Assembly: GCF_009649845.1 (NCBI RefSeq)
Contig: NZ_WJIE01000026.1
Coordinates: 1 to 64,000, forward strand
DNA: 64,000 nucleotides
Direction: 5' to 3'
Source of the DNA: Polyangium spumosum
GTDB lineage: Bacteria; Myxococcota_A; Polyangia; Polyangiales; Polyangiaceae
The notes below the pieces were generated by a model that searched no databases, was not told where the DNA came from, and saw only the letters and a list, made by a program, of their open reading frames with translations. Below are positions 1 through 29,446 of this stretch, in pieces. Within the stretch, counting starts at the first letter, position 1. Every line of letters begins with the position of its first letter. Made by a program: the position numbers and the translations under genes.

Positions 1-38
1 CGAGGCCGCGACCATTGCAGCACGTGTCGGCCTCACCG

Positions 39-1778
39 ATGAGCGCCGGACAGCTCGAGGCGATGATCCGCGCCGTGCCCCTCTTGCGCATGCACGATCC
101 TCGCCTGCTGCGGACTCTGACGGGGGGCGGCGGCGCTCGCGAGGTCTCGGGCGTCGATCCGACGAGGGGCACGTACCACGCGCTCCCCGGCGAAACGCCG
201 CACGGGATCACGAAGAAGCTCACGGGGCAGACCGAGCGCACGCAGGAGCTCCTCGCGGCGAATCCGGGCAAACCGGATTCCGATCCCGTGTGGAACATCC
301 CGCCGGGATGGCTCCATTATGCGGGCGACACCGGAGCGGTGCTTCCCACGGCCCGCAAGTATCTCGTCGTGAAAGATGACTGGCCGCAGAAGATTGCCTC
401 GAAGCTGGGAGCCTTCCCCGCACGCGCGAAGTGGTGGTCCGAGCTCCGGGCCGCGAATCCGCACAAGGCCACCGAGAACGGCAACTGGACGTATCTCTAC
501 CCGGGCGAGGAGATCGGCATTCCGAACGAATGGCCGGATCACCCGCTCGCGGTCGCCGTCGATGGCGTCCCCGCGCAGCCATCCACCCCGGGCGTGCCCG
601 CTCCGGGAAAGACGACGACGCTCGACCCTGCTGTCGTTCCGCACACGCAGGCGCTTCTCGCGAGCTGGGCATTGCGGAATCCGGGCGATTGCAACCCCTC
701 CGACTTCGGAAGGAATCCGATGGACCTCGTCAGCGGTTTCACGCCGAGGACGACGCAGGCGCTCGCCTCGTTCCAGACATGGTGGAACAAGAAACAGCCC
801 AATCGGCCGTTAGCAACGACGGGAGAGCTGGATCAGGCAACCTACAATGCGTTGGTCGAGGAAAACAACGCGTCCGGCACCGTGTTCAGCGGTGGAACGA
901 AGACGGAAGAACAGACGACAACACAACAGACGCAGGAGTCCGCGAGTCCGCCACCGCTTCCTTCTCTTCCTTCTCGCGCCGACGCGCCACAAGCGCCTTC
1001 CGCAGAGCTGCCGCCGGGGGTCAGTGTCCAGGCGAGTTCGAAGCCCGGCCATGTCCTTCTGGTGACGCCCATGGGCAGCTTCGACCTGCCCGCGACGCCA
1101 GGCTCGAAGCCGGGGACCGTGGTGGTCGACGTGCCGCTGCTCGGCAAGCGCGAGATCCCGGCCCCGGCCGCGTCGCAGCAGCAGTCCACGCCGAGTCCGC
1201 CGCCGCCCCCTCCGCCTCCCGCCGCGCCTTTGGCGGGGCTGCCGCCGGGGGTCAGTGTTCAGGCGAGCACGAAGCCCGGCCATGTCCTCGTGGTGACACC
1301 TATGGGTAGCTTCGACCTGCCCGCGTCGCCGGGCTCGAAGCCGGGGACGGTATTCGTCGACGTGCCGTTGCTCGGCAAGCACGAGATTCCCGCCCCGACT
1401 GCCCAGCCCACGCCCGAACCCCCGGAAGAGGTCGAGCAGCCCCCGAATTGGGAGGGGGCTGGCGGTTCCCCGAAGCTCGACGACACGTTCAGCGAAGCTG
1501 CCAAGAGGGACATCCTGCTCTTCCTTGAAGCCTGCAACAATCCTTATCAATTGGAGGAAGTTGCCGAAGCGTACGAGCAATCCGGCTATCCCCTTGCAGC
1601 CAAGGCAATGCGGGATCGGGCCAACGTTCTGCGGCAGCAGCAGGGCGGGGGAAGCTCCCCGGGCTGGGAATACTACCCGCAAACCAACTCCGCTCCCCCG
1701 TCGACTGCCGACGGTAACAACAAGGGGAGCCTTCTGCCCGTGATCGCGGTGGTCGCTGCGGGCCTCGCTTTCTCGTGA
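39..1778 (+). CDS. LysM / peptidoglycan-binding-like protein with two tandem Pro-linked repeats
   Basis: The frame is open to the left edge (an alternative TTG lies at 15), so the 5' end is uncertain; ATG 39 gives about 579 aa. Residues about 45-175 look like one or two LysM modules (patterns such as 'ELLAANP', 'SELRAANP', 'YLYPGEEIGIP'). A region around 205-275 ('TPRTTQALASFQTWW') resembles a peptidoglycan-binding helical domain. Pro-rich linkers then separate two near-identical ~45-aa units ('LPPGVSVQAS...KPGHVL', 'TPMGSFDLPA', 'VDVPLLGK'). A helical segment follows and the C-terminus is hydrophobic ('LLPVIAVVAAGLAFS'), possibly a tail anchor. Wall-binding architecture is seen; role is inferred. 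It is the first of six packed plus-strand genes and its wall-binding character fits the SpoIID-like protein at the other end. Confidence 0.7.
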   Translation: MSAGQLEAMIRAVPLLRMHDPRLLRTLTGGGGAREVSGVDPTRGTYHALPGETPHGITKKLTGQTERTQELLAANPGKPDSDPVWNIPPGWLHYAGDTGAVLPTARKYLVVKDDWPQKIASKLGAFPARAKWWSELRAANPHKATENGNWTYLYPGEEIGIPNEWPDHPLAVAVDGVPAQPSTPGVPAPGKTTTLDPAVVPHTQALLASWALRNPGDCNPSDFGRNPMDLVSGFTPRTTQALASFQTWWNKKQPNRPLATTGELDQATYNALVEENNASGTVFSGGTKTEEQTTTQQTQESASPPPLPSLPSRADAPQAPSAELPPGVSVQASSKPGHVLLVTPMGSFDLPATPGSKPGTVVVDVPLLGKREIPAPAASQQQSTPSPPPPPPPPAAPLAGLPPGVSVQASTKPGHVLVVTPMGSFDLPASPGSKPGTVFVDVPLLGKHEIPAPTAQPTPEPPEEVEQPPNWEGAGGSPKLDDTFSEAAKRDILLFLEACNNPYQLEEVAEAYEQSGYPLAAKAMRDRANVLRQQQGGGSSPGWEYYPQTNSAPPSTADGNNKGSLLPVIAVVAAGLAFS

Positions 1779-1801
1779 CGCTTCGATAGGGGGGCCGCGC
1801 C

Positions 1802-2644
1802 ATGCCCAAGATGCCGAAGCATTTACCATTCTGGTGGTGGAACTGGTGGCAACGAGAGGAGCCGCCCGCCCCAGCCCCTCCGGCACCGCCCCCCAGCTCC
1901 CCGCGCCTGTTCCGATGGTCGCACCAGGATCGCGACCTCGCCAGCGCGGGCGCTGCGGCTCTTGAAACCGCCAAGCAGGGCGCGTGGATGGCGCTCGGCA
2001 AGAAGCAGCGTGCGCGTCAATTCCGGGCATTCGTCGTCATGTCCCTGCGGATTGCGCCGGTCTCGTGGCGGCCTACGCCGCTGGGACAATTGGGTCCGCA
2101 TCTCTACAGCACACCAGAGCGTAACGCCGCGGGCTCGGCAATTGCGCGCACACTTCTCCTTCTCGCCCCCGGGAATCTCCGGCCGGGGTCCGACATCGTC
2201 ACCGAAGAGGGAGAGCCGGCGACCGGGACGATCGAGACAGGCATCGTCCACGTTCTGACGGTATTGCTCGTCGGCGCCGTCGCGATCGCTGCGGCATATC
2301 TCGGCAGTCTCGCTGCGCAGGCGATCCACGCTGTGAACTTCGACGACGAGGTTACGAAGCGCCTCCTCGCTGCGCAGGCGCGCGCAATGGAAGTCTTATC
2401 GATACACGTCGAGCGCGAGCGCATCGTCGGCCGCGAGCTGCCGTTCGACGAGGCGGAGAAGTCGATGCTCCGCACCCTGGAGGATGTTCAGCGACAGATC
2501 GCGACGCTTCGACGGACGCCGCTCCCGTCGCCTTTTGATGGCGCGACCGAATTGGTCAGGGCCACGACCAGCTTTCTACCCATGGCAATCATCGTATTTG
2601 CTGCATTCGTACTTCTCAACAGGCAGCCCGAAAGGAGACCGTGA
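1802..2644 (+). CDS. membrane protein with two predicted TM segments
   Basis: 280 aa; ATG 1802 lies 23 bp after the upstream stop behind a G-rich Shine-Dalgarno-like stretch. Trp-rich N-terminus ('FWWWNWW') and a Pro-rich segment, then a TM helix ('HVLTVLLVGAVAIAAAYLG'), a charged helical stretch of about 75 residues likely to form a coiled coil, and a second TM near the C-terminus ('FLPMAIIVFAAFVLL'). No family recognised. Position between the LysM-like protein and a second small membrane protein suggests a role in a membrane-associated assembly; that is inference. Confidence 0.65.
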   Translation: MPKMPKHLPFWWWNWWQREEPPAPAPPAPPPSSPRLFRWSHQDRDLASAGAAALETAKQGAWMALGKKQRARQFRAFVVMSLRIAPVSWRPTPLGQLGPHLYSTPERNAAGSAIARTLLLLAPGNLRPGSDIVTEEGEPATGTIETGIVHVLTVLLVGAVAIAAAYLGSLAAQAIHAVNFDDEVTKRLLAAQARAMEVLSIHVERERIVGRELPFDEAEKSMLRTLEDVQRQIATLRRTPLPSPFDGATELVRATTSFLPMAIIVFAAFVLLNRQPERRP

Positions 2645-2647
2645 AGC

Positions 2648-3133
2648 ATGGCAGAAGAAAGAGTCCGCGTCGACCGCTCTCTCGTGGCGGTTCCGCGCGC
2701 CCGGTTTCGACGCCGGGGCAATAACAGGCATTGGGCTCGCGACGTGGGGACCGGGTTCCTCTACACCGCGGGGGCCGGTGCGGTGGTCGCTCTCCTCGCG
2801 AATCTGGACGACATCCGGAACAGCAAGGAGGTCAAGGACCACTGGTGGCTCATGCCGGTCGCGCTGGTCGCGATCGGATACATGCTGCGCAAGCGGCGCA
2901 ATGCGCACGCGAACGCGGTGATCGCGGTGGGCGGGGCCATGTTCGCGCTCTCGTACATGGCGCAGCAGAAGGCCGCACAGGCGGCGCAGCAGGCGCCGGC
3001 CCCGGCGGGCAACGATACCGCCGCGCCGTTTGGTGCATTGCAGGGGCAAACGACGGGGTTCTGGTATCAGGCCCCGGATGGCCGGTTCCTGCGATTGCCC
3101 AACATCGTGCGTCGCGTCGTTGCGAACGCGTAG
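2648..3133 (+). CDS. small membrane protein, unknown
   Basis: 161 aa; ATG 2648 begins 3 bp after the previous stop with AAGGAGA just upstream, so the pair is probably co-translated. A basic N-terminus is followed by three hydrophobic stretches ('FLYTAGAGAVVALLA', 'WWLMPVALVAIGYML', 'NAVIAVGGAMFALSYM'), an Ala/Gln/Pro-rich linker and a short C-terminal tail containing 'GFWYQAPDGRFLRLP'. No family recognised. It fits the module as a second membrane component. Confidence 0.65.
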   Translation: MAEERVRVDRSLVAVPRARFRRRGNNRHWARDVGTGFLYTAGAGAVVALLANLDDIRNSKEVKDHWWLMPVALVAIGYMLRKRRNAHANAVIAVGGAMFALSYMAQQKAAQAAQQAPAPAGNDTAAPFGALQGQTTGFWYQAPDGRFLRLPNIVRRVVANA

Positions 3134-3173
3134 ACACATTCCGAGGACCAGTTTCAGGGGAAGGAACCAGATC

Positions 3174-4382
3174 ATGAGCAATAACACGAGCAGCAATATG
3201 ACAGCCCTCGACATTTTGAGGGAATCCGACGAGGAGGGCGAGACGGCTTCGCCCTTCGAGGAGCTCGACGACGACGAGACCGCCGGCCCCGACGACGAGG
3301 ACAACGACGACGACGACACCGCCGCCCTCGAGCTCGAGGCCGAGGAGGAAGACACGGGCGACATTCGCGCGCTCCGCAAGCGTGGGAAGAAGACGGTCTC
3401 CCTCGAAGAGCTGCGCCAGCTCCAGCGGCGCTCCCGCGCCCGCGGGCAGCGTATCGGGGTGAAGAAGGTGCAGAAGAAGGTGCAGGCGCAGAAGCCGAAG
3501 CCGCGCCCGAAGCTGCCCCCGACCTTCGTGCCGCCGAACAATGGCGCGCGGCAACTCTTCAACAAGTGGGCGTCCCGCGGTTCGCAGTTCGTGATGCGCC
3601 AGGAGGGCCATTTCTACTCCGTTGCCGAGATTCGATGCAAGTGCCTGGGCAACGAGAAAGCCGCATGGCTCCACATCCCGAAGGGGGAATATCCGCTCTT
3701 CAATGTGGCGGTGGGGGAATCGTTCACGCTCCTCGGCAACAGCGCCACGGTGACGACGAACTGGACGAATCTCCAGCGTCCGTCGAAGGTCACGTACAGT
3801 GAGACGGAGTTCCTGATCCAATCGATTACGATGCAGGAAGCGGGGCTCCGGGTCCGGTACGATGGCGCCGAGATCGACAAGCTCGCGGGTATCGGCGAAG
3901 CGAAGAGCGTGCTCACGGGGCAGGCGTGGTTGTGGGACGACGCGGGCACGTTCTTGCCCAAGGAAATCTTTCACGATTACAGCGGGGAGAACCTCCTGTA
4001 CCGGGCGCTGCGTCGCTCCGCGGTCATCTATTTCCACTGGGACAAGTCGCAAAGCGGCGCGAGTGAATTGTCCCGCAAGCTGCTCATCGATCACCTGCGC
4101 AACGTGCCGGATACCAAGGTGAAGACGCTCTCGCGGACGTCGGGCGGCGCAGCGGTCTTGCCGGTGCCCGATGGCTACGTGTTCACGGACAACCCCGAGC
4201 GGAACGAGCATGGCGCATTCAACGCGGTGATCCACGTCCCGGAGGACATCGTCTTCCCGATCAAGCCGATCGAACTCGGAGGTGTGGTCATGCGTCCGCT
4301 CGAGGTGGGGCTCTACGTGCAGCTCTCCCTCAACGGAATCGCGTTCCAGCACCATCAGCAGCAGTCCGGCGTGAAGACCTGA
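3174..4382 (+). CDS. 402-aa protein: acidic-then-basic N-terminus plus beta-rich body (structural protein candidate)
   Basis: ATG 3174 follows AAGGAA and is preferred to the upstream in-frame start at 3030, which would overlap the previous gene. Residues about 12-62 are almost solid Asp/Glu; about 65-115 are Lys/Arg-rich with a helical start ('SLEELRQLQRRSRARG'); a Pro-rich hinge follows ('KPRPKLPPTFVPPNN'). The remaining ~285 residues are rich in alternating hydrophobic/polar stretches typical of beta-sandwiches ('SFTLLGNSATVTTNW', 'EVGLYVQLSLNGIAF'). No homologous family recognised. The charged N-terminus resembles a scaffold or delta domain, and a ~285-aa beta body is a size compatible with a double jelly-roll capsid protein. 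That is speculation, offered because of the neighbours (wall-binding, membrane and SpoIID-like proteins). A secreted matrix protein is the alternative. Confidence 0.7.
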   Translation: MSNNTSSNMTALDILRESDEEGETASPFEELDDDETAGPDDEDNDDDDTAALELEAEEEDTGDIRALRKRGKKTVSLEELRQLQRRSRARGQRIGVKKVQKKVQAQKPKPRPKLPPTFVPPNNGARQLFNKWASRGSQFVMRQEGHFYSVAEIRCKCLGNEKAAWLHIPKGEYPLFNVAVGESFTLLGNSATVTTNWTNLQRPSKVTYSETEFLIQSITMQEAGLRVRYDGAEIDKLAGIGEAKSVLTGQAWLWDDAGTFLPKEIFHDYSGENLLYRALRRSAVIYFHWDKSQSGASELSRKLLIDHLRNVPDTKVKTLSRTSGGAAVLPVPDGYVFTDNPERNEHGAFNAVIHVPEDIVFPIKPIELGGVVMRPLEVGLYVQLSLNGIAFQHHQQQSGVKT

Positions 4383-4394
4383 AGGGGGGATGCC

Positions 4395-4793
4395 ATGAGC
4401 GTGGCGGAGATCAATAGCGAGTCGAAGCATAACGTCGTCGAATCGGATCCGCAGTTCGGCCCGTCGACACATTGCGTCGTGATCATCGAGCAGCCGCCGC
4501 TGATGGGGGACGAGCCTCCCCCGCAGTGGCGGGTCTCCGCCACGCTCACGCTTCTGGATCCGGTGTTCGGCAAGGAGGCATTGCTTGCCACGCTGCCCAC
4601 GGTGACCGTCGGGCCGCTGATCCAGAAGCGGCAAGTGGTCGCCATGGCCAAGTACCCGAGCCCGGTGGAACGTTGGACGTTCCGTTTTTCGAGCGACGCG
4701 GGACGGGCGACGGCGCGGGTTTGGCTGCATCCGGGAAACTCGCCCGTGACGGAGTGCGGGATCTTCGTGGTGCAGCACGGATTGCGGGGGTGA
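4395..4793 (+). CDS. small beta-rich protein, unknown
   Basis: 132 aa; starts 12 bp after the previous stop behind 'GGGGGA'. After an unstructured ~25-aa N-terminus the protein alternates short strands ('THCVVIIEQPP', 'WRVSATLTLLD', 'RWTFRFSSDAGRATARVWL', 'ECGIFVVQHG'), suggesting a compact single beta-sandwich. No TM or signal peptide. Not recognised. Next to the 402-aa beta-rich protein it could be a minor structural component; inference only. Confidence 0.65.
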   Translation: MSVAEINSESKHNVVESDPQFGPSTHCVVIIEQPPLMGDEPPPQWRVSATLTLLDPVFGKEALLATLPTVTVGPLIQKRQVVAMAKYPSPVERWTFRFSSDAGRATARVWLHPGNSPVTECGIFVVQHGLRG

Positions 4794-4795
4794 CC

Positions 4796-5464
4796 ATGGT
4801 GATCGGAGAGGAGCCTTCCGAAGCTCCGGAGCGTGTTTTCACGTCTGCGGGATGGCTCTCGCTCGAGCGCGAGTACGTGCCGCGGGTGGTTGCGGGCGAG
4901 CATCCGTACGCGCATCCGGAGGCGAAGGCCGCGCTTGCCATCGCGGCGCGGACGTTCGTGCTCCGGGCGATGCGGGATCGGCCGACGCTGGGGCGGACGA
5001 CGGCGATCCCGAGCGGGGAGCAGTTTCAGGTGTTCGCACGAGGGGCGAGCGAAGAATGCGTGGTTGCCGCCTCCGTGACGCGGGGGATCGTGCTCCGATA
5101 CCAGGGGCGCATGATCCTCGCGAACCATGTCGCTGGCGCCTACTGGAAGCCGGACGGGTCACTCGGGTCCGATCCGACGAAGACCGAACGCTGGGTGACC
5201 TACAACGTCGGCAGACGAGGATCCGAAGTCGTCCCCACCGGCCTTTCGCTTCGGTCGCATCCAGGGAACCGCGGCTGTCTTGGCCAGCATTGCGCGCACT
5301 GGCTGGCTTCGCAGGGATACGATCACCGGACCATCCTGCGATTTTTCTATGGTGACGACGTCGAGTTCCACGCGCTGGCCAGCGGGGAGCGCACGGGGCT
5401 CGTCGGTCAAACGCTTTGGGGCGTTCTGGCGCTCGCCTTCTTCGGCATCACCATGCGGAGGTAG
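4796..5464 (+). CDS. SpoIID/LytB-like domain protein with C-terminal TM
   Basis: 222 aa; ATG 4796 is 2 bp past the preceding stop, so translational coupling is likely. It carries the hallmarks of the SpoIID amidase-enhancer/lytic transglycosylase family: 'EAKAALAIAARTFVLRAM' near residues 42-59 and the C-terminal 'GCLGQHCAHWLASQGYDH' followed by 'ILRFFYGDDVE', matching the family's conserved tail with its repeated-tyrosine position. Known SpoIID proteins cleave or help cleave peptidoglycan glycan strands. The last ~18 residues ('LWGVLALAFFGITMRR') are a TM helix. In this operon it is the second wall-acting protein besides the LysM-like one. Confidence 0.75.
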   Translation: MVIGEEPSEAPERVFTSAGWLSLEREYVPRVVAGEHPYAHPEAKAALAIAARTFVLRAMRDRPTLGRTTAIPSGEQFQVFARGASEECVVAASVTRGIVLRYQGRMILANHVAGAYWKPDGSLGSDPTKTERWVTYNVGRRGSEVVPTGLSLRSHPGNRGCLGQHCAHWLASQGYDHRTILRFFYGDDVEFHALASGERTGLVGQTLWGVLALAFFGITMRR

Positions 5465-5579
5465 TGGTGGCGCTTCGACTGGTCCAAGCCGGAGAGGATT
5501 GCACCTTGGGGATCGGGTTGCTGGGCATTGCGGCCAAGCTGATATCTCAGCGTCCCGAACGCAGCTAGCTTCGTCCGGC

Positions 5580-5623
5580 GTTCTCTGACAAACGATGTCT
5601 CGTTCCCTGACGAATGAGGTCTC
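5580..5623 (+). repeat. tandem 22-bp imperfect direct repeat upstream of the 5649 gene
   Basis: Two adjacent 22-bp units, 5580-5601 and 5602-5623, agree at 18 of 22 positions with shared pattern GTTCYCTGACRAAYGAKGTC. Two helical turns per unit and a position 26 bp before an ATG suggest a tandem regulator-binding site; no regulator is assigned. Confidence 0.5.
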
Positions 5624-5648
5624 CTCGCAGTGGTAGACCTCGCCGATC

Positions 5649-6185
5649 ATGAGCCACTGGCACACTCCTCTTCTGTCGATGCTCGGCATGCTGACCACGG
5701 GCGTGGTGGTTTACGGAATCACCTCGTGGCAATCACCCTCCGCACCGTCAGAGCCCTCAGCAGCCGTCAAGAACGAACGGTGCGCACATGACGAGCCGGC
5801 TGTCGTAGACGTCTTGGCCTCGGAGGCCCCTCGACCGTCTTTGCAGGTCGTGGCGCCGCCTTCCCGACCAGCCCTGCCAGGAACCGCCCCGCGGCCGTCC
5901 CGCTCGGTCCTCGCCGCGACGCTGCCTCCTCCGCCTCCTCCGCCGCCTGCGCCTCCACCTCCGTCGTCCAGCGAGACCACTCCCGAGGAGGTGGGGACCC
6001 TCGTTGCAGTGGCCATAGGCGGTACATGTAGGTTTTCCGTCGATGATGTTTCCATCACGACAGCCGATACGCTTCGGTTGCCGCTTCCCCCAGGCGTACA
6101 CGTGGTCAAGTGCGGGGCGCGTACGCGGACCGTGACGATCAAGGATGGCGAGATCGCGATGGCGCTCTTCAAGCTGAAGAAGTGA
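5649..6185 (+). CDS. signal-anchored envelope protein with Pro-rich linker and PEGA-like C-terminus
   Basis: 178 aa. An N-terminal hydrophobic helix ('LLSMLGMLTTGVVVYGI', about residues 8-24) anchors the protein; a long Pro/Ser/Ala linker includes a polyproline run. The C-terminal ~65 residues ('CRFSVDDVSI', 'LPLPPGVHVVKCG', 'TVTIKDGEIAM') resemble a PEGA-type surface beta-domain with two Cys that could form a disulphide. Such domains are common in myxobacterial envelope proteins. Preceded by the tandem 22-bp repeat. Function unknown. Confidence 0.6.
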   Translation: MSHWHTPLLSMLGMLTTGVVVYGITSWQSPSAPSEPSAAVKNERCAHDEPAVVDVLASEAPRPSLQVVAPPSRPALPGTAPRPSRSVLAATLPPPPPPPPAPPPPSSSETTPEEVGTLVAVAIGGTCRFSVDDVSITTADTLRLPLPPGVHVVKCGARTRTVTIKDGEIAMALFKLKK

Positions 6186-6355: not shown

Positions 6356-6595
6356 TCAGGGGATGGGAAGCCCCTCCTCGGCAGCTCGAATCAGCTCCCA
6401 GACCCGAGTGTCGAGCGCGTTCGCGATCCGGACGATGTTCTGGATCGAGATGTTGCGCTCGCCACGCTCGACGGACCCCACGTACGTCCGATGCAGCGCG
6501 CACCGATCCGCGAGCTCTTCCTGGCTCAGCCCAAGCGCCAGCCGTCGATCTCGGATGATGTGGCCTAATTTGCGCTGTAGGAGGGTCTCGTCCAC
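6356..6595 (-). CDS. XRE-family HTH regulator (Cro/C1 type)
   Basis: 79 aa from GTG 6595. Nearly the whole protein is one helix-turn-helix domain: 'LGHIIRDRRLALGLSQEELA' (helices 1-2), 'RTYVGSVERGERNISIQNI' (recognition helix) and 'RIANALDTRVWELIRAAEE'. Length and sequence resemble restriction-modification controller (C) proteins and small phage repressors, but no restriction gene adjoins it. A promoter with a palindrome over its -10 lies just upstream (6634-6675), consistent with autoregulation. Confidence 0.85.
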   Translation of the reverse strand: MDETLLQRKLGHIIRDRRLALGLSQEELADRCALHRTYVGSVERGERNISIQNIVRIANALDTRVWELIRAAEEGLPIP

Positions 6596-6784: not shown

Positions 6785-7822
6785 ATGCGCCGCGCCTATG
6801 CAGACCTGCTGACGCTTGCCCTGGTGATGCTCGCGCCGCCCGCGATGGCCGATGATGCGCCCACGGCGCCGCGCGTTGCGTTTCGGCTCGAGTACGCGGC
6901 GCCCTCCGGAGCGCAGTGCCCCGCAAGCTCCGCCCTCGCGGAGCTGACAAGCGCGAAGTTCCGGTACGATGCCTTCCCGGACGCAGCGCGCGCGTCGCTC
7001 TCGGTGACGGTGCGGCGCGCCGCTGGACGTCTGGAGGCCGCGCTCGTCGCGCGAGACGATCAGGGCGCGGTCCAGTGGGAGGAGACGGCGACCCCGCGGT
7101 GGAAGTGCGACGAGCTCGTCGAGGACGTGGCGCTCATGATCTACGCGCGGTTCATGACGCCCAAGGGCGAGACGCCGGAGGCGTGGACGCTCCTGGTCTC
7201 GCAAGAGCCATCGCAGGCCCCAGCTCCGCTGCGGGCACCGTCCCCGGCTCCTTCGCCACCCCGTGCCCCGGAGCCATTCGCGTCGCAGCCACCGCTTCCC
7301 GCCACACCCACGCCCAGGGTGCCCGAGCCTCCGTTTCGGCGCGAGCTTTCTGTCGCCTTCGTCGTCGGACTCCTTGATACACCTGCCACCGCGTTGGGGG
7401 GCGCCATCCAGGCTGCGGCCCGGTGGCCTTGGTTCTCCCTCGGAGTGGAAGTTCGTGGGGCGGTCGATCACCGGGGCGAGGTGGCAGGAGATCCCGTCCG
7501 CTTGTGGCTCGGGGGGCTGACGGGCATTCCTTGCCTCGTCGTGCATTCGCGTGTCCGCACATGTTTTCCTGTTGCCGGCGGTTTCCTCCAGGCGACGGGA
7601 GGGGAGAAGCTCGTGTTCCGCACCGGTACGATTCAGCCATTTGCGGGGTCGGGCTTGCGGGTATCGTATGACCAACCCTTGAGCCAGGCGCTCTGGCTGC
7701 GTGCACATGGTGAGGTCCTGCTGCGCATGAAGGGTGCTTTGCTTGGAAATTCGCCGCGCTCCGCCTGGGAAAGCCCTGTCGTGCTGCCCTCGTTGGCAAT
7801 CGGCATCATGTGGAGTCCTTGA
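6785..7822 (+). CDS. secreted two-domain protein, unknown myxobacterial type
   Basis: 345 aa. Signal peptide ('LLTLALVMLAPPAMA', cleavage about residue 22). A ~100-aa N-terminal domain contains two Cys ('AQCPASSAL', 'RWKCDELVED') that could pair, then a Pro-rich linker of ~60 residues, then a ~165-aa domain rich in amphipathic strands ('FSLGVEVRGAVDHRGEVAG', 'LRVSYDQPL', 'HGEVLLRMKGALLG'), barrel-like. Not recognised as a named family; proteins of this layout are often seen beside ECF sigma factor genes in Polyangiales. The lipoprotein gene follows 17 bp downstream. Confidence 0.65.
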   Translation: MRRAYADLLTLALVMLAPPAMADDAPTAPRVAFRLEYAAPSGAQCPASSALAELTSAKFRYDAFPDAARASLSVTVRRAAGRLEAALVARDDQGAVQWEETATPRWKCDELVEDVALMIYARFMTPKGETPEAWTLLVSQEPSQAPAPLRAPSPAPSPPRAPEPFASQPPLPATPTPRVPEPPFRRELSVAFVVGLLDTPATALGGAIQAAARWPWFSLGVEVRGAVDHRGEVAGDPVRLWLGGLTGIPCLVVHSRVRTCFPVAGGFLQATGGEKLVFRTGTIQPFAGSGLRVSYDQPLSQALWLRAHGEVLLRMKGALLGNSPRSAWESPVVLPSLAIGIMWSP

Positions 7823-7839
7823 ACGAACCGGGGATATCA

Positions 7840-8940
7840 ATGACGTATCAACTAAAGTGTTTTGGTTTGCTCCTGCTCTTGGTTCTATGGGGATGCGGCA
7901 ACGAACCCATTCTCTGGTGCCACGTCGACGAGCCTGATTGTCTGAATCCTTCCCCTCCGGCGGACGCCGGAACCGACGCGGCAGAAGATGCCGGAGACGG
8001 CGACACGGAAGCCAAAATCTGCACCGGCCAGTGCGTCCCCTTCCGGCCCCTCGGATGGAGCGAGCCGATCCTCGTGGCGAGGACGCCCGGCGCCGCCGTC
8101 GAGTGCCCGCCCGAGGCACCCCACCACCACTTCACCAAGTACGCCGATCTCGTCGCGGGGCCGCTGGCCTGCAACTGCGCCTGCAAACCTTCGACGGGCT
8201 CGTGCACGCTCCCGGCGACGATGACGGCCGGCAACGCGGCCTGCTACACGTCCGGCGCGGTCCCCACGTCGTTCGATCCCCCGGCCGACTGGGACGGGAG
8301 CTGCTCGAGCTCCAACGCGATCGCCGCCGGGAAACAGTGCGGCGGCAAGCCGTGCGTCGAGTCGCTCACGATCGGGCCGATGGTGGCCGTGGACGAGGGC
8401 TGCGAGGTCGACGAGCTCGAGATCCTCACCGGGCAGGGTGACGAGCCGACGTGGGGTCTCACCGTGGTCGCCTGCGAAGGTTACCCGGAGAGCGGCGAGG
8501 GCGGATGCGGGGCGGGCGGGAAGTGCGCCCCCGCGCCTGCGCCGCCGCCGGAGTTTCGCGTTTGCGTATATAAGGAGGACGATGTCCCCTGCGAGGGGGA
8601 GAACTACACCGATCGGCTCGTCGTCTATACCGGGTTCGACGACAAACGAGGATGTACCGCATGCGAGTGTTCGCCGGAGGTCGAGGGCAGCATGTGTACG
8701 GCGATGGCCTCGATCTACAAGGACGACGCGTGCGTTGATCCTCTGCTTCTCGGGTACTCGATCTCGTCCCTCAAGGAAGCGTGCTTCGATGTGACCCTCC
8801 CCGGCGCGGCCCTCGGGAGCAAGTCGATCTCGAACGTCACGTACCACGCGGGCACATGCCAGCCGGCCGGCGGGGAACCGATCGGGGAGGTGGAGGCGCT
8901 TCGTCCCTCGACGATCTGCTGCCGTCCGAAGGACAACTGA
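7840..8940 (+). CDS. Cys-rich lipoprotein, unknown
   Basis: 366 aa from ATG 7840; an in-frame GTG at 7810 would overlap the preceding gene and precede the signal peptide. A lipoprotein signal 'LLLLLVLWGCG' gives lipobox Cys about residue 17. An Asp/Ala linker follows, then a large domain with about 20 Cys ('CNCACKPSTGSC', 'CTACECSPE'), implying a disulphide-stabilised exported protein. No catalytic motif seen. It lies between the secreted 345-aa protein and the sigma factor and may be in the same functional set. Confidence 0.65.
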   Translation: MTYQLKCFGLLLLLVLWGCGNEPILWCHVDEPDCLNPSPPADAGTDAAEDAGDGDTEAKICTGQCVPFRPLGWSEPILVARTPGAAVECPPEAPHHHFTKYADLVAGPLACNCACKPSTGSCTLPATMTAGNAACYTSGAVPTSFDPPADWDGSCSSSNAIAAGKQCGGKPCVESLTIGPMVAVDEGCEVDELEILTGQGDEPTWGLTVVACEGYPESGEGGCGAGGKCAPAPAPPPEFRVCVYKEDDVPCEGENYTDRLVVYTGFDDKRGCTACECSPEVEGSMCTAMASIYKDDACVDPLLLGYSISSLKEACFDVTLPGAALGSKSISNVTYHAGTCQPAGGEPIGEVEALRPSTICCRPKDN

Positions 8941-8943
8941 CGA

Positions 8944-8976
8944 TTTGGGTGTCCCTCTCGGGCGCTCATCCCAATT
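8944..8976 (+). promoter_or_regulatory. 33-bp promoter/operator motif, copy 1 (before the sigma gene)
   Basis: TTTGGGTGTCCCTC at the left and CCCAATT at the right, 28 of 33 bases identical to the copy at 10125-10157. The ends form an inverted repeat (TTGGG...CCCAA). It ends 8 bp before the GTG of the sigma gene, so if it is a promoter the transcript is almost leaderless. Duplication of the motif before the sigma gene and the next gene suggests autoregulation. Confidence 0.55.
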
Positions 8977-8984
8977 GATAGAAC

Positions 8985-10118
8985 GTGACCCGAGAATTCG
9001 ACACCCAAGGTGATCCTCGCGAGCAACTCACGCAGCTTGCGCTCCGCGTACCGGGATGGTTGGTGCGTCTTCCGCCGCCCTGGGGGCCTGTTCCACTCGC
9101 GGAGGTGGGAGACCTCGCGCAGGAGGTCTTGACGGCGGCCGTCGTGGGTTTGTCGCGGTTCGATCCGGCGAAGGGGGCGATGGCTGTCTGGCTGTACACG
9201 ATCACGCAGCGAAAGGCGCGGGATCGACAGGTACGCGAGCAGTTTCGAGGAGGATTTTCCGTCGAGGCAGACATCACAGCGGCGCCGAGCGGCGCGCGGA
9301 ACCCCGAGGAGGCCATGGCTACAGCGCAGTACGAGCGACTCGTGCACGAGACCATCGGGGAGATGGATGCGGATCTTCGCGAAGTGCTGACGGCCGTCGA
9401 GCTCGGGGAGCTGAGCCACGAGGAGACGGCGCAGTTGGTCGGCGTTTCGAAGCGGACCGTCAAGGATCGCCTCGAGCGCGCGCGGGAGGATTTCACGCGG
9501 CGGATCAAGCGGAAGATGCGCGACCGCGGCATGGTCGTCCTGCCCTTCGCGGTGGACGGGCTGTTCGCGTTCCTTCGCGCGCGCACGGAGCACGTGCCGG
9601 AGGAGCTGCGCGAGCGGCTCCGCGCCATCGTCGAGCAGGGGCCGGGATCGACGAGGCCGGAAGCGCCCGCGGCGGTGCCGGATGCCGAGGCTCCGGCGAC
9701 GGGGCCGGCTGCGCCGGACGTGGGGTCGTTTCTCGGAGGAAACATCACGGGCGGGGTTGTTGGAGGGGTCCTCGTATATCTCCTCATGCATCCCGCGGCG
9801 GTCGTGCCCGAGGCCACGAGGAGCCACCTCGACGAGCGCATTCCCCCGGCTGTTGCCGCGCTGCCGGTGACCGCGGCGCCGCCCCCCGCGCAGCCTCCGA
9901 GCGCGCCGAGCTCAAGGACGGCTCCTGCGGATCCGATGCCCGAAGCTCGGGCCTTGCTGAATCGGGCGGTGGGTGCCCTGGAGCAAGGCGACATCACGGA
10001 TGCACGGGCGGCGTTCGAGCGATACGATCGTCGGTTTCCGTCGAATCCGCTGCCCAAGGTGAGAGCGTTCGTCCTCGGCGAGCTCATCCGGACCGAGCGA
10101 CCCCGCCGCGCTCCCTGA
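8985..10118 (+). CDS. ECF-type sigma-70 factor with TM and helical C-terminal extension
   Basis: 377 aa from GTG 8985. Sigma region 2 spans about 20-90 ('DLAQEVLTAA', 'AVWLYTITQRKARD') and region 4 about 115-175 ('HEETAQLVGVSKRTVKDRL'); region 3 is absent, as in ECF sigmas. Residues 180-245 are a charged/Pro-Ala linker, 250-274 a TM segment ('ITGGVVGGVLVYLLM'), followed by another Pro-rich linker and a C-terminal TPR-like helical pair ('ALLNRAVGALEQGDITDAR', 'FERYDRRFP'). Fusion of a sigma factor to a TM and extracytoplasmic-type domain suggests membrane-tethered or built-in control rather than a separate anti-sigma, none of which is visible nearby. Directly preceded by the 33-bp motif. Confidence 0.8.
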   Translation: MTREFDTQGDPREQLTQLALRVPGWLVRLPPPWGPVPLAEVGDLAQEVLTAAVVGLSRFDPAKGAMAVWLYTITQRKARDRQVREQFRGGFSVEADITAAPSGARNPEEAMATAQYERLVHETIGEMDADLREVLTAVELGELSHEETAQLVGVSKRTVKDRLERAREDFTRRIKRKMRDRGMVVLPFAVDGLFAFLRARTEHVPEELRERLRAIVEQGPGSTRPEAPAAVPDAEAPATGPAAPDVGSFLGGNITGGVVGGVLVYLLMHPAAVVPEATRSHLDERIPPAVAALPVTAAPPPAQPPSAPSSRTAPADPMPEARALLNRAVGALEQGDITDARAAFERYDRRFPSNPLPKVRAFVLGELIRTERPRRAP

Positions 10119-18726: not shown

Positions 18727-20433
18727 TCAGGCAAGGAGCTCGGCGACGAGGGCGTCGGCGAGCTTGCGGGCGCCTTCCTCGGCGCGGCGGAGTTTTTCTT
18801 CCAGGGTGTCGCAGAGGGACATGAGGTGGTCGACTTTGGCGACGATGCGCTTTTGTTCGGCGAGGGGCGGCAACGGAATAGGAAATCTTGCAACCTCCTC
18901 CGAATCGAGACGGCACGTCCCGTGGGAAGACCGCTCAACCCGTAGCAGCATCCGCTTTCGACTAGCCTGACAGGCACGAAGCAGATACTCTGCAACTGCG
19001 GGAGCTGCCAAAACAAGCGCCTTCATGTCCTGATTAATCGTGACGCTCCGTGTCGTGAGAGCAACAGGAAAAGAGTGCGCCAGGATCATTCCACGAACAA
19101 CGAAGAGCAGAGCACCACTCGGAATTAACTTCACCGAGGAATGCTCAATCGCCTCCTGGGAGATGTGATCCTCAGCATCTTCTATGTAAGGTCTCTTCAT
19201 ATCCTTCGGGCTAACCCACGGGATCGGCCCCGCCCAGAACGAGGGCGTCGATTTCGAAGGGGTGCCCCCTCCCATGAAACCTCCACACATACCGAGACGT
19301 ACCCACCGCCACGACTCAGGTAACGAGTATGGCTGCTCGGATTCTTTGACTGGAGGAAGAGCGGTAGGATTTGCCCCTGCCATCTTGCCAGCAAGGACCG
19401 AAGCCGGCTCGTCGCCCACGGCTTGGGGCACGAGTTGGCCCCTAACCGCAAGCTCCAGAACCAATTCCCGCAGCATCTTGACGGTCCCCGGCACGTCCGT
19501 CAATAGTGCGAAATTGGCTACCACCCGCCGCCAGCTTGCGACCACGTCTTCCGGCCCCTCGGCACTCGTGAGCGCATCGAGCGCCGCCTTGTTCAGCCGG
19601 GCCGCCGTCTCCCGCTGCTTCGCCTGGCGGGCATCCAGGTCGTCGCATCGTCGCAAGAAGTGCTCCACGACGGCAATGATATTTTCCTGTTCCTCGACGG
19701 GTGGCAGGAGAATATGAAACGCCTTCACCTCAGGAAAGTAAATCGTCTGATGCACCGCTCCCTTCGAGAACCGGCGGAGGGATTCGTGCTCGCACACAAA
19801 CAGATACATCAGAAACTTTGGCAGCAAGGCGTCGGAGCAAACCCAGTTAACAAAATCCTGACTGGTCGCCATCGATCGACCCATGATGGTGACGTAACCC
19901 ACTGAGGCGGTCCGAGATAGGCACACCGTGCCCTTCGGCAGAAGCCTCGCGGATGAATTCTCGATCCCCAGTTCGGAGACGGTTTGTTCCGTATCGAAAA
20001 TTTCTTTGCCGTTGTGCTTCCGCGCGTCCCGGATTCCAATCCAGGGCACGCCACCATCCCAGTATTCAGGATGGTTACGGCTCGGCGTATGTCCTGATTC
20101 CAGTGTTGCGACACTCGTTAACGGAACGCACTGCCAACCATCGGGCGTCTTCATCTCCGCGGGGCCAACGGATAGTGCCGAAACCCCGGGGATTATCTCG
20201 CTTGTTGCAGCGCGACCACGTGTTGCTTCCTCACTGACGCGCGGGATCGCACTTCGCCCACCCGTACGCGACGTTAACCGGCCTTGAAATGCGAGATGTA
20301 GAACGACCCTTCGTAACTGCGCCACGCTTCCTGGCGCATCGGCGAGTGTATCGAGATTCGATAGCAGCCTCTCCGCCTCCGGCGTCAACTCCCGCCGCTC
20401 GAAAAGCCCAAGCTGCTTCCTCTTCCCCTTCAT
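18727..20433 (-). CDS. hsdS: type I restriction-modification specificity subunit HsdS
   Basis: 568 aa with the classic duplicated plan: target-recognition domain 1 ('PDGWQCVPLTSVATLESG', 'YWDGGVPWIGIRDA'), a conserved helical spacer ('LLPPVEEQENIIAVVEHFLR'), target-recognition domain 2 ('PESWRWVRLGMCGGFMGGG', 'WAGPIPWVSPKDM') and a second spacer helix ('LPPLAEQKRIVAKVDHL'). Each TRD reads one half of a bipartite DNA target. ATG 20433 overlaps the hsdM stop by 4 bp (ATGA), so translation is coupled. G+C is visibly lower in the TRDs than in hsdM/hsdR, as usual for exchangeable specificity domains. Confidence 0.93.
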   Translation of the reverse strand: MKGKRKQLGLFERRELTPEAERLLSNLDTLADAPGSVAQLRRVVLHLAFQGRLTSRTGGRSAIPRVSEEATRGRAATSEIIPGVSALSVGPAEMKTPDGWQCVPLTSVATLESGHTPSRNHPEYWDGGVPWIGIRDARKHNGKEIFDTEQTVSELGIENSSARLLPKGTVCLSRTASVGYVTIMGRSMATSQDFVNWVCSDALLPKFLMYLFVCEHESLRRFSKGAVHQTIYFPEVKAFHILLPPVEEQENIIAVVEHFLRRCDDLDARQAKQRETAARLNKAALDALTSAEGPEDVVASWRRVVANFALLTDVPGTVKMLRELVLELAVRGQLVPQAVGDEPASVLAGKMAGANPTALPPVKESEQPYSLPESWRWVRLGMCGGFMGGGTPSKSTPSFWAGPIPWVSPKDMKRPYIEDAEDHISQEAIEHSSVKLIPSGALLFVVRGMILAHSFPVALTTRSVTINQDMKALVLAAPAVAEYLLRACQASRKRMLLRVERSSHGTCRLDSEEVARFPIPLPPLAEQKRIVAKVDHLMSLCDTLEEKLRRAEEGARKLADALVAELLA

Positions 20434-21908: not shown

Positions 21909-24251
21909 TCAAGCGTCGTCGTAGAGCGCGCCTTCGAGCGCGGCGACCGCCTTCTCGAACTTCCCCCGATCGCCGAAGGCGCGCACGAGCTCCACGAGGG
22001 TGCCCATCTTGTCGAAGGGCCGCAGTTTGAGCTGCTCGGCGTCGTCGAGCGCCTCGAGCCCCTCGTCGACGAACTTCGCGACGAGCCCTTCGAGCACCTT
22101 GCGCGCCAGCCCCTTGTGCCGGGCGAGGACCTGCTCCACACCGTCGTTCTTGGCCCGCTCCCGACGCGGAACGAGCGGCGCCCCGAACCCGGCGTGCGCG
22201 AGGAGATCGTAGGTGGCGTACCCCTCGCCGTACTTGACGGCGAGATCACCCGTCGCGACGCCCTGCCGTTCGAGCTCCCCGAGCAACTCGCCCCGCTTCT
22301 CCACGGCGAGCCAGAGCCGCCGAAGATCCTTGCGTGATTTGCAGACCTCCAGCAGCACCACGCGCGCATGCGCCTCGACGGGCACCTCGATGCGCTTGCC
22401 GGCGGCATCGTACCGGTGCACGTCTTCGCGGATGACGGACACCTCCTCGTCGTCGATGTAATACTTCGTCCGACGGGTCCCGCGCCGTGCAGCCGAGGGC
22501 GAAGGCGGCGGCTCGTCGATATCGTCGTCCTCGGGCGGGGCGATCGGATCCCCTTCTTTGGGCTCGTAAATCTGCTCGGGCGGACCGTCGAACTTCTCGT
22601 CCGCGAAATGCCGCGTGACCCCACGGAAGTCCATGATCGTGAACCAGAACTTGCCGTAATCCTCGCGCAGCCGCGTCCCGCGGCCGATGATCTGCTTGAA
22701 CTCGGTCATCGAGCCGATCTCCTGGTCGATGACAATGAGCTTGCAGGTCTGCGCGTCGACGCCCGTGGTGAGGAGCTTCGACGTCGTCGCAATCACCGGA
22801 TAACGAGAGGCCGGCAGGATGAAATCATCGAGCTCGTGCTTGCCCACCGCGTCGTCGCCCGTGATCTTTCGGACGTAGCGCGGGTGGTCGACAACGAGAT
22901 CGGCGTTCTCCTGGACGAGCGCGGACCGCATCCGATCGGCGTGCTCGATGTCCTCGCAGAAAACGATGGTCTTCGCGAACCGGTCCCCCGTCTGCTTCAG
23001 ATACTCGGTGACCTTCTGGGCGACGAGCGGGGTGCGTTTTTCGAGCACCACGGTACGATCGAAATCCTTGCGCTGGTAGGTCCGATCCGGGACGAGCTGC
23101 CCGTACTTGTCGAACTTCCCCTTGCCGGGGCTGTACCCGTCCACGTCCTTGTCGAACTCGACCCGGATCACCTTGTACGGCGCGAGGAACCCATCCGCGA
23201 TGCCCTCGCGGAGCGAGTACGTGAAGATCGGCTCGCCGAAGTAATCGATATTGGAGACGGTCTCCGTCTCCTTGGGCGTCGCCGTGAGCCCGATCTGCGT
23301 CGCCGACTTGAAGTATTCGAGGATCTCCCGCCAGGCCGAGTCCTCCGCGGCGCTGCCCCGGTGGCACTCGTCGACGATCACGAGGTCGAAAAAACCGGGC
23401 GTGAACTGCTTGTAGATGTTCTTCGCCTCCTCCGAGCCCGAGACCCCCTGGTAGAGGGCCATGTAGATCTCGAAGGACTTGTCGACCATGCGATGCTTGA
23501 TCTTGGTGAGCGCCTTGCCGAGCGGCTGGAAATCGTTGTTGCGGGCCTGGTCGATGAGGACGTTGCGATCGGCGAGGAAGAGGACGCGCTTCTTGACCCC
23601 TGCTTTCCAGAGCCGCCAGATGATCTGGAACGCGGTGAACGTCTTCCCCGTCCCGGTGGCCATGACGAGCAGCACCCGCGACTGCCCCTTGGCGATGGCC
23701 TCGACCGTGAGATTGACGGCCTTGATCTGGTAATATCGCGGCGTCTTGTCCTCGGTCCCGGGATACCAATCCTGCGCGGCGACGGCCTCCTCGGCGGGCC
23801 CGATCTTCCGGAAGGCGCAGTAGCGACGCCAGAGCTCGTCGGGGGTAGGGAAGCGGTCGATGGGGAGCTCGCGCTCGATCTTCTTCGAGGTGCCGGAGAG
23901 GTCGTGCTCGAGGAACGCGTCCCCGTTGGTGCTGTAGGCGAGGGGGATGCCGAGGAGCTCGGCGTACGCGAGCGCCTGCTGCATGCCGGCGCCGACGGCG
24001 TGGTTGTTGTCCTTGACCTCGATGACGGCGACGGGGAGGTTCGGCTTGTAGAAGAGGACGATGTCCGCGCGCTTGCCGGTGTTGGGGATCCGGTGCTGGC
24101 CGGCGCGGGGCTTCGTGGTGACGCGGTCGGCGGTGAGGGTGAACTCCTCGCGGATCTGAAGGGAGAGGTCCCAGCCGGAGGAAGGACGCGTCAGCGCGGG
24201 GAGGACGAACTTCGTCGTGATGTCGCGTTCGCTGAGGGCCTTTTTGTTCAT
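21909..24251 (-). CDS. hsdR: type I restriction endonuclease subunit HsdR
   Basis: 780 aa from ATG 24251; longer in-frame starts up to 24593 add a low-complexity, unconserved N-terminus. The HSDR_N nuclease core has D63 ('KRADIVLFYKP') and E78-x-K80 ('VAVIEVKDNN'). SF2 motor: Walker A 'ATGTGKT' near 198-204, 'DECH' at 294-297, 'LTATPKE', and motif VI 'IIGRGTRLREDYG'. A C-terminal helical domain joins HsdM/S. Shorter than the ~1000-aa EcoKI-type subunits, in line with the EcoEI/EcoAI-like branch. All catalytic residues are present, so the system looks intact. Confidence 0.93.
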   Translation of the reverse strand: MNKKALSERDITTKFVLPALTRPSSGWDLSLQIREEFTLTADRVTTKPRAGQHRIPNTGKRADIVLFYKPNLPVAVIEVKDNNHAVGAGMQQALAYAELLGIPLAYSTNGDAFLEHDLSGTSKKIERELPIDRFPTPDELWRRYCAFRKIGPAEEAVAAQDWYPGTEDKTPRYYQIKAVNLTVEAIAKGQSRVLLVMATGTGKTFTAFQIIWRLWKAGVKKRVLFLADRNVLIDQARNNDFQPLGKALTKIKHRMVDKSFEIYMALYQGVSGSEEAKNIYKQFTPGFFDLVIVDECHRGSAAEDSAWREILEYFKSATQIGLTATPKETETVSNIDYFGEPIFTYSLREGIADGFLAPYKVIRVEFDKDVDGYSPGKGKFDKYGQLVPDRTYQRKDFDRTVVLEKRTPLVAQKVTEYLKQTGDRFAKTIVFCEDIEHADRMRSALVQENADLVVDHPRYVRKITGDDAVGKHELDDFILPASRYPVIATTSKLLTTGVDAQTCKLIVIDQEIGSMTEFKQIIGRGTRLREDYGKFWFTIMDFRGVTRHFADEKFDGPPEQIYEPKEGDPIAPPEDDDIDEPPPSPSAARRGTRRTKYYIDDEEVSVIREDVHRYDAAGKRIEVPVEAHARVVLLEVCKSRKDLRRLWLAVEKRGELLGELERQGVATGDLAVKYGEGYATYDLLAHAGFGAPLVPRRERAKNDGVEQVLARHKGLARKVLEGLVAKFVDEGLEALDDAEQLKLRPFDKMGTLVELVRAFGDRGKFEKAVAALEGALYDDA

Positions 24252-24384
24252 GGCGACGCTCGGGGGGGCCGTCAGGTTACCAGGAGGTGGAGAGGAAGGT
24301 GAAGGGGTGATCGGTGACCCCGACGAAGGCGCGCGACCCCACCCCTGGCACGGGTGTAAGTCGTGACTACAACCTTGACGGCGG

Positions 24385-27396: not shown

Positions 27397-27636
27397 GAGT
27401 GTAGGTCATACAACGGGAAGGGGCCGAACGGAAGAAAGATGCGCGGGAGCCTGATCGCGATCAGGCGCGTCGGGGGACGAACCTGATCGCTGGCAGCGAC
27501 GCGGGTCTGACGCAGTACGGCAACCGAAGTCATTTCAAAGACTTGTGCACGCCCTCTGTGAACGAGGACAGGCACGAAGGGTGCGATCCGCAGCGTGTCC
27601 GTCGCGCCTGGACGCGACGAACTGAGGAGGAACATC

Positions 27637-28943: not shown

Positions 28944-29373
28944 TCCGCGCCCCTTCGCTTTCGTGTAACCACTTACCACGTGTAGCTTCCGCTTCATGCG
29001 GTCCCCCGCGCGTTTGTGCGCTCAACCTCATGCGCCTCACGGCGATGCTCGCGCACCCCCCAGGGCGCTGCGCACGTCACGCGCTGTTCGGTAGGACCGT
29101 TCGTGCAGGGCGCCGCTCGTCCGCCAGGATGCCTGCGTCCGCCCGCTTGCCGGAGAGCTTGCTGGAACGTCAAGCTGGCGTTTGCCCTGGCCGCCCTCCG
29201 TCTCTTCTGTGGCCTCACGATGGCCTCAACCCACATCCCAAGACGTCTCCAGATGTCTCGCCATGTCGCCTCCCCCGCCCTCGTCAAACTTCGCAAAAGT
29301 GGCTGGAATGATGCTGTTTCCGATGTCCTTCTCAGGGGTTAGCGAGGACCACCTCGCGCCCCGAGCCCGCATT

Positions 29374-29417
29374 TCCTAAACCGAAGGTCGCAGGTCCGAT
29401 TCCTGCCGGGGGTGCCA
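29374..29417 (+). other. 3' half of tRNA-Arg(CCT): probable attachment-site scar
   Basis: Anticodon loop TTCCTAA (29373-29379), 3' anticodon stem and variable loop (29380-29389), T-stem GCAGG/CCTGC (29390-29394 and 29402-29406) around loop TCCGATT, acceptor 3' strand CGGGGGT (29407-29413), discriminator G and encoded CCA (29415-29417). Upstream sequence does not supply ACCCCCG or a D-arm, so the 5' half is missing. Tyrosine integrases commonly duplicate exactly this tRNA 3' segment; the orientation predicts that the intact tRNA and the element body lie to the left. Confidence 0.65.
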
Positions 29418-29446
29418 GTAGTTCCGCGGACTTAGCTCACGTTCTT

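Follow-up and report, generated by a model that had tools for sequence, protein, structure and literature searches.

A conserved virion-like gene module in an integrated, multi-copy element of Polyangium, probably that of a tailless membrane-containing virus

We have analysed the first 64,000 nucleotides (the window) of contig NZ_WJIE01000026.1 of Polyangium spumosum, which open on a module of six genes for wall-directed, membrane and beta-rich proteins. The window starts at base 1 of this 66.9-kb contig (C26), and the left side of the module is cut by the contig end. The module clearly belongs to an integrated, multi-copy mobile element, of which it is the conserved, virion-like part. In our reading, held with a probability of about 0.66, this integrated element is temperate and virus-like, most likely a tailless virus with an icosahedral shell and a membrane, and the module would be the half of it that provides the virion and the wall-crossing functions. 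We favour this reading because of the conserved gene order, the tRNA ends, the integrase and excisionase-like gene, the divergent relatives and the exchanged wall enzyme, and also because of purifying selection, the presence in six of six Polyangium genomes, the spread of the copies in strain 6x1, the fold matches and a motif shared between proteins. The initial annotation had suggested either a tailless virus containing a membrane or a device for crossing the envelope; the integrase, the ATPase and the integration at a tRNA gene speak for this proposal, but its capsid fold remained unproven.

The module and its full form in other copies

Six closely spaced genes had been described at 1–5464, and all six were found at these coordinates on the plus strand, with spacings of 2–40 bases. 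As limits of the system, these coordinates proved too narrow, as the element runs to the left past the contig end and to the right to about position 29,418. The six genes are as follows.

3–1778, plus strand: LysM/peptidoglycan-binding-type protein, start missing (cut by the contig end)
1802–2644, plus strand: MP1, membrane protein of 280 amino acids, two hydrophobic segments in a simple hydropathy scan
2648–3133, plus strand: MP2, membrane protein of 161 amino acids, one hydrophobic segment in the same scan
3174–4382, plus strand: candidate major capsid protein of 402 amino acids, charged tail at 3174–3524 and beta body at 3525–4382
4395–4793, plus strand: protein of 132 amino acids, directly 3' of the capsid candidate
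4796–5464, plus strand: SpoIID/LytB-domain wall enzyme (Pfam SpoIID, 29.6 bits, cut-off 23)

The LysM protein measures 892 amino acids in the copy on contig C41 of the same genome, where an acidic N-terminus is followed by a Gly-rich stretch. On the one hand, its proposed binding to peptidoglycan agrees with a PHROG endolysin match over the whole window protein (E = 1.4e-4) and with a LysM match, slightly below the Pfam cut-off, in the distant relative from genome G115. On the other hand, the Pfam scan of the window copy gave no match. The hydropathy scan bore out both membrane proteins, and MP1 is homologous to MP1 of genera outside Polyangium.

As had been read from the letters, the 402-amino-acid protein has an acidic and then basic N-terminus, with net charges of −22 (residues 21–62), +17 (residues 63–118) and 0 (residues 119–402). 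The body of 285 amino acids, from residue 118, consists mostly of strands in low-confidence AlphaFold models, and the hydropathy scan revealed no hydrophobic segment that could export the protein. A tRNA-Asp reported by ARAGORN inside the acidic stretch of this gene (3260–3334, minus strand) looks like a false positive; Rfam found nothing there. The 132-amino-acid protein had no match in Pfam or PHROG, and hhalign gave no link to the small proteins of distant relatives; we regard it as a candidate minor capsid or vertex protein. The SpoIID-like gene was confirmed by Pfam and, more weakly, by the NCBIfam model SpoIID_LytB (E = 1e-13, 51.9 bits, under the model cut-off of 83.3).

Further copies in the window's own genome extend the module to the left. 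Contig C33 carries the whole module, C41 a copy cut within the capsid candidate gene, and C43 and C39 end fragments. Upstream of the LysM gene, C41 and C33 share three further genes: the first encodes a proline-rich protein, the second a transglutaminase-fold protein (PF01841, E = 1.7e-12) and the third a P-loop ATPase. The best NCBIfam model of this ATPase is RadA/Sms (TIGR00416, E = 1.2e-9, far under the equivalog cut-off). C41 also carries a tyrosine integrase in the opposite orientation (PF00589, E = 5.8e-20). The full form, as seen in other copies, comprises the tyrosine integrase, an excisionase-like protein, the proline-rich protein, the transglutaminase-fold protein, the RadA-like ATPase, the LysM protein, MP1, MP2, the capsid candidate, the 132-amino-acid protein and the SpoIID-type enzyme. 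This gene order is conserved over the Polyangium loci, among them those of Polyangium sp. 6x1, y55x31 and 15x6 and of P. fumosum DSM 14668.

Among the copies with a left end that was read, six have the integrase beside the module (L009, L039, L040, L041, L046 and G337), and in the copy G433:C11 it is one uninterrupted gene (record L039). The name of the excisionase-like gene near it rests on a weak PHROG match (E 0.01). The initial annotation had pointed to the left of the window for an integrase or a packaging ATPase: the integrase is there in other copies, with the excisionase-like gene, while for the ATPase a RadA-like P-loop protein was found but none of the FtsK/HerA type was recognised.

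Some copies hold additional genes. In the C33 copy (L010), a repeat protein is encoded after the 132-amino-acid gene (4672–5730), as it also is in the G337 copy, with repeats that match, in addition, the C-terminal region of the LysM gene. Between the genes for this repeat protein and for SpoIID, an open reading frame (ORF) at 3646–4521 looks, by eye, like an IS3-type transposase. In the G337 copy, two tandem stretches match the RadA-like ATPase (L031, 14856–15416 and 15443–16150). An alpha/beta hydrolase-like protein, also named by eye, is encoded near the SpoIID gene in G367:C63 (19021–19959), in L022 (1352–1780) and in G372. No such gene was seen in the copy of the window, and the G433:C11 version had no match in Pfam.

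Element ends and the tRNA site

The left end of the window's own copy lies off the contig; other copies show the end structure. In G433:C11 the left end is an intact tRNA-Arg(CCT) gene followed by the integrase and the excisionase-like gene, an arrangement that recurs in the P. fumosum locus L040. At the right end of G433:C11, about 31 kb away, the 3' part of tRNA-Arg(CCT) is duplicated, and the sequence upstream of this duplicate is unrelated. An integrase at a tRNA gene with a duplicate of the tRNA 3' part at the far end is the mark of a tRNA-integrated mobile element. An intact tRNA also lies near the G337 element, and G367:C63 has two copies of a 45-base repeat 30.5 kb apart, the left copy of which is also partial, with no intact tRNA. 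The corresponding site in the window is the following.

29372–29418, plus strand: right attachment site, 3' part of tRNA-Arg(CCT), identical over 45–47 bases to the sites of other copies

Around this right end, 210–248 bases are 93% identical to the right ends of G367:C63 and G433:C11. Accordingly, the element most likely takes up the first 29.4 kb of the window. In the window's own genome there are five copies of a 39-base repeat core; an integrase was matched 14 times there, in nine cases with E of 1.7e-16 or lower. Considering that a second integrase lies beside the site in G367:C63, in G337 and in part in G433:C11, these may be tandem elements that have lost a middle site.

Distribution, relatives and selection

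Profile matches to the capsid candidate were found in all six Polyangium genomes, with one to six matches each, some of them partial; four of the six have several, and one carries six full-length copies of the gene. When the 402-amino-acid protein itself was the query, seven of the 377 genomes of the phylum matched, one of them (G072) by chance. The G072 match lay in the charged tail only and was gone with the profile, and G072 was rejected as a relative. At the level of the phylum the profile matched 7 of 377 genomes, and at that of the class 9 of 317, all within the window's own family. The G281 protein as query matched 9 of the 108 family genomes and reached the Polyangium proteins at E down to 1.5e-9.

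Very diverged versions occur in three other genera (G281, G115 and G372), with capsid candidates of 272, 291 and 320 amino acids without the charged tail. All three carry MP1, the transglutaminase-fold protein and the N-terminal domain of the proline-rich protein. RadA- or KaiC-like ATPases were found in G281 and G372 and none in the stretch read for G115; integrases were found in G281 and G372. In G281 an SLT lytic transglycosylase is encoded downstream of the capsid candidate. Both G281 and Polyangium have a wall enzyme, but its type has been exchanged (SLT and SpoIID, respectively). Lytic enzymes guessed by eye in G115 (L072, 13160–14092 and 15358–16116) and G372 (L073, 10970–11659) had no Pfam match and were not used.

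Between copies, the ratio of non-synonymous to synonymous substitution rates (dN/dS) is 0.06–0.38 for the body of the capsid candidate and 0.11–0.54 for its tail in the same eight pairs, which were kept out of nine, the G337 pair having been dropped. These ratios indicate that the gene is under purifying selection. Since the body is conserved in this way and the same genes stand in the same order in many Polyangium loci, we consider the module to be more than a chance grouping. In a tree of the copies, the five from strain 6x1 fall in three places, three among the relatives of the window, one with C33 and G337, and one deeper. This scatter suggests that the element was acquired several times and not duplicated recently.

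A motif shared by three virion candidates

Three of the ten element proteins tested, namely the capsid candidate, MP2 and the LysM protein, share the motif [DE]TA[AGST]P, and all three are virion candidates. The motif was absent from the other seven element proteins (112 sequences) and from 91 background ORFs (33.6 thousand residues). The window holds it as follows.

3014–3028, plus strand: DTAAP, residue 123 of MP2
Tail of the capsid candidate, plus strand: ETASP at residue 23 and ETAGP at residue 35

Over 17 distinct loci, the motif is present in 17 of 17 capsid candidates, 11 of 17 MP2 and 12 of 17 LysM proteins, and the cut LysM copy of the window has none. The motif counts were 30, 11 and 13, respectively, in comparison with means of 0.04, 0.03 and 0.16 in 1000 shuffles of the tested stretches, although the loci share ancestry and the pooled counts are not independent. 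For single proteins, the fraction of 5000 shuffles that reached the count was 0.0002 for the window's capsid candidate tail, 0 for the L049 tail, 0.001 for the window's MP2, 0 for the C41 LysM protein and 0.01 for that of C33. The motif lies mostly just before the start of the RPRP-type body in the LysM protein, before the C-terminal segment in MP2, and once or twice in the tail of the capsid candidate. We read these places as putative processing or docking sites. Limited as it is to three virion candidates, the motif provides a concrete prediction of processing sites.

The right part of the element and its cargo

To the right of the module, the window contains the following features.

6356–6595, minus strand: HTH_3 (Xre-type) regulator, between the module and the shared block
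6785–10118, plus strand: shared block of a secreted-looking protein, a Cys-rich protein and a sigma-70/TPR protein, common to G367:C63, G433:C11 and L040
18727–24593, minus strand: type I restriction, HsdS at 18727–20433 and HsdR at 21909–24593, variable cargo
25666–28578: two protein-kinase-like genes, 25666–27396 on the minus strand and 27595–28578 on the plus strand, variable cargo

Other copies carry other cargo in this part. In G433:C11 there is a GTPase-associated (double-GTPase) conflict system (DO-GTPase1, GASH, GAP1-N1 and EAD1) with a HEPN/Toprim protein, and in G367:C63 an AAA protein of 2001 amino acids. Relaxase and type IV secretion genes, which would mark an integrative conjugative element, were not found among the Pfam-scanned ORFs, which cover the right part only in part. 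Just to the right of the attachment site, the window encodes a NACHT-domain protein of 1047 amino acids (30384–33527), a possible defence gene outside the element.

Capsid candidate and the weight of the evidence

The initial annotation had called for a comparison of the capsid candidate with jelly-roll capsid proteins. A major capsid protein of this fold and an FtsK/HerA-type packaging ATPase are the marks of Varidnaviria (Bamfordvirae or Helvetiavirae). When the model of the body was compared by VIA, 38 of the 50 rows shown were viral capsid proteins, with no Z reaching 5. The first row was SH1 (Z 4.3, root-mean-square deviation 4.9, 134 aligned residues), and others were SPV1, P23-77 VP16, HCIV-1, HHIV-2 and an iridovirus. 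Among the 50 rows shown by Foldseek against the PDB, 34 were capsid proteins, eight cypovirus polyhedrin and eight non-viral; SPV1 came first, and the best E was 0.056. In the BFVD search, 25 of 50 rows were named and 21 of these were capsid or structural proteins (best E 0.005). For the full-length model, the top VIA row (Z 4.4) was a non-capsid protein aligned on the N-terminal helices, with capsid rows up to Z 3.7. These matches, mostly to jelly-roll capsid proteins, are suggestive only, and the body may have a single- or double-jelly-roll capsid fold. The comparison thus leaned towards jelly-roll capsids in most rows, but with low-confidence models and no significant match.

Several results weigh against a virus. 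The AlphaFold models of the full protein (mean predicted local distance difference test 51.5, predicted TM-score 0.46) and of the body (56.2 and 0.60) are both of low confidence. None of the fold matches is significant, with no Foldseek E at or below 0.001, no VIA Z of 5 and TM-scores of about 0.1–0.2, and we do not take the share of capsid rows as proof. Alignment by hhalign with PM2 P2, the major capsid protein of FLiP and P23-77 VP16/VP17, which stand for Corticoviridae, Finnlakeviridae and Matsushitaviridae, gave probabilities of up to 0.3%, which did not exceed those of four control proteins. According to the accessible text of PMC5894146, sequence comparison fails to connect the FLiP protein with other groups as well, and the failed alignment therefore says little about the fold. 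Neither IMG/VR (three queries) nor the GenBank phages contained a match to the capsid candidate or its relatives; plasmids gave none to the capsid candidate, and profile searches of the PDB sequences gave chance matches only. The queries in the IMG/VR, phage and plasmid searches were capsid candidates only. Among the ten core proteins, the Pfam, PHROG and NCBIfam scans revealed no packaging ATPase of the FtsK/HerA type, and the RadA/Sms-like protein was the only P-loop ATPase recognised; no replication initiator was recognised in the element. In the window's own genome, all five repeat copies lack the 5' half of the tRNA, so that an intact tRNA-Arg(CCT) gene was not seen there. The contig coverage in strains 6x1 and y55x31 gave no sign that element contigs are amplified. 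The shared motif is missing in the distant genera (G281, G115 and G372), and the catalytic His is not visible in the transglutaminase-fold protein of G372, so that protease activity of this family may not be general. Finally, cargo makes up about half of the element, which is more like a genomic island.

One alternative is a particle-forming system that is not a virus in its own right, namely a domesticated or satellite-like (gene-transfer-agent-like) one whose capsids move itself or the defence cargo. Such a system would fit the large amount of variable cargo that adjoins the structural genes (type I restriction genes in the window, the GTPase-associated conflict system with HEPN/Toprim in G433:C11), the several matches in four of the six Polyangium genomes and the lack of a recognised replication gene. 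However, the integrase stands beside the module in six of the copies with a left end read, the copies within one genome are divergent and do not form one fixed locus, and the element has its own putative structural set; we consider this explanation unlikely.

We hold it to be quite improbable that the element is a non-viral integrative one, in which the module would be an envelope-crossing or secretion device and the beta protein a surface or layer protein. The dominance of wall and membrane proteins in the module, and weak fold rows with the non-viral beta-sandwich proteins AlgX, FlhE and Seipin, are in line with such a device. Most fold rows are viral capsids, however, and the 402-amino-acid protein lacks an export segment in the hydropathy scan, for which no signal-peptide predictor was used. 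Also, an ATPase, a transglutaminase-fold protein, an exchangeable muralytic enzyme and an integrase in one element would together form a viral pattern. SpoIID and LysM domains are common in clusters for envelope biogenesis or sporulation, and the module could on that account be an ordinary host cluster of this kind. The tRNA integration site, the integrase, the divergent multiple copies and the patchy spread (9 of 317 genomes of the class) contradict this, and we regard a host cluster as extremely improbable.

A proposed life cycle and its meaning

If the element is a tailless membrane-containing virus, its operon would be expressed after excision. The 402-amino-acid protein would form a jelly-roll shell, with its acidic/basic N-terminal tail pointing inside, and MP1, MP2 and the Gly-rich LysM protein would be located in an internal membrane or connect to it; the indication of a lipid membrane comes from the hydrophobic segments of MP1 and MP2 only. 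The transglutaminase-fold protein may trim virion proteins at the [DE]TA[AGST]P sites, and the RadA-like ATPase may handle DNA in packaging or replication. The LysM and SpoIID-type proteins would open the peptidoglycan at entry or exit, and the right part would carry the variable, defence-type cargo.

Such a virus would represent a lineage absent from the catalogues searched with the capsid candidate (IMG/VR, GenBank phages and plasmids), despite its presence in all six Polyangium genomes. Our literature search, by title and the start of the abstract and with most subscription journals outside its coverage, found no description of such an element in Polyangium or in myxobacteria nor, by title among the papers listed, in Sorangium and other Polyangiales, and the accessible text of PMC5894146 has no word beginning with 'myxo' or 'delta'. 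As far as this literature shows, it would be the first tailless virus of myxobacteria. It would also test the reach of the rule that a jelly-roll capsid goes with an FtsK/HerA ATPase, and defence genes in the variable part would make the element a vehicle of anti-phage systems. A bolder proposal, to which we give only tentative credence, is a new tailless temperate virus lineage at the family level or deeper, the first from myxobacteria, with a jelly-roll capsid, a RadA-type ATPase replacing the FtsK/HerA motor, several virion proteins matured at the shared [DE]TA[AGST]P motif by a transglutaminase-fold protease, and anti-phage cargo.

Comparison with known systems

The myxobacterial phages Mx4 and Mx8 are tailed, according to the accessible text of PMC6070905; they resemble the element as viruses of myxobacteria and differ from it in the tail. 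In the ten Polyangium and the ten G281-locus core proteins scanned, the SLT enzyme aside, no PHROG match with E < 0.1 to an HK97 capsid, portal, terminase or tail protein, the marks of tailed phages (Caudoviricetes), was found. The SLT enzyme of G281 matches lytic virion and tail proteins through its SLT domain, and a weak match to a terminase small subunit (E 7.6e-4) lies beyond the G281 integrase.

Polintons carry a maturation protease, an ATPase and an integrase, but they have eukaryotic hosts, and their protease, ATPase and polymerase belong to other families than those of the element. Polintons or polintoviruses are integrated elements with jelly-roll capsid proteins that were proposed as bona fide viruses from their gene content, as the accessible text of PMC4028283 states. 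No homology between them and the element is claimed.

The Helvetiavirae (SH1, HCIV-1 and P23-77) are tailless viruses with an internal membrane, as is predicted for the element from its genes. Their single-jelly-roll capsid proteins provide the first VIA row of the body (SH1, Z 4.3) and recur in the lists, with none of these matches significant. In the accessible text of PMC12643093, genomes of Sphaerolipoviridae measure about 30 kb, near the roughly 31 kb of the element. The element differs in that its capsid candidate has no sequence match to P23-77 VP16/VP17 and in that no FtsK/HerA ATPase was recognised in it.

Finally, Finnlakeviridae (FLiP) and Corticoviridae (PM2) are small, tailless, membrane-containing bacterial viruses, and the element, too, is predicted to be tailless and membrane-containing. 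In both viruses a capsid protein (311 amino acids in FLiP, 269 in PM2) is followed by a small structural protein, as the capsid candidate of the element is by the 132-amino-acid protein, and the FLiP virion has a lytic enzyme where the element has wall enzymes (PMC7654751 among the sources for both points). The FLiP and Odin groups are also without an FtsK/HerA ATPase, according to the accessible text of PMC5894146. Neither FLiP nor PM2 shows sequence similarity to the element, and their genomes are smaller, 9.2 kb of single-stranded DNA in FLiP and about 10 kb in PM2. In comparison, the element of Polyangium extends over about 31 kb and adds an integrase, a RadA-like ATPase, a transglutaminase-fold protein and cargo.

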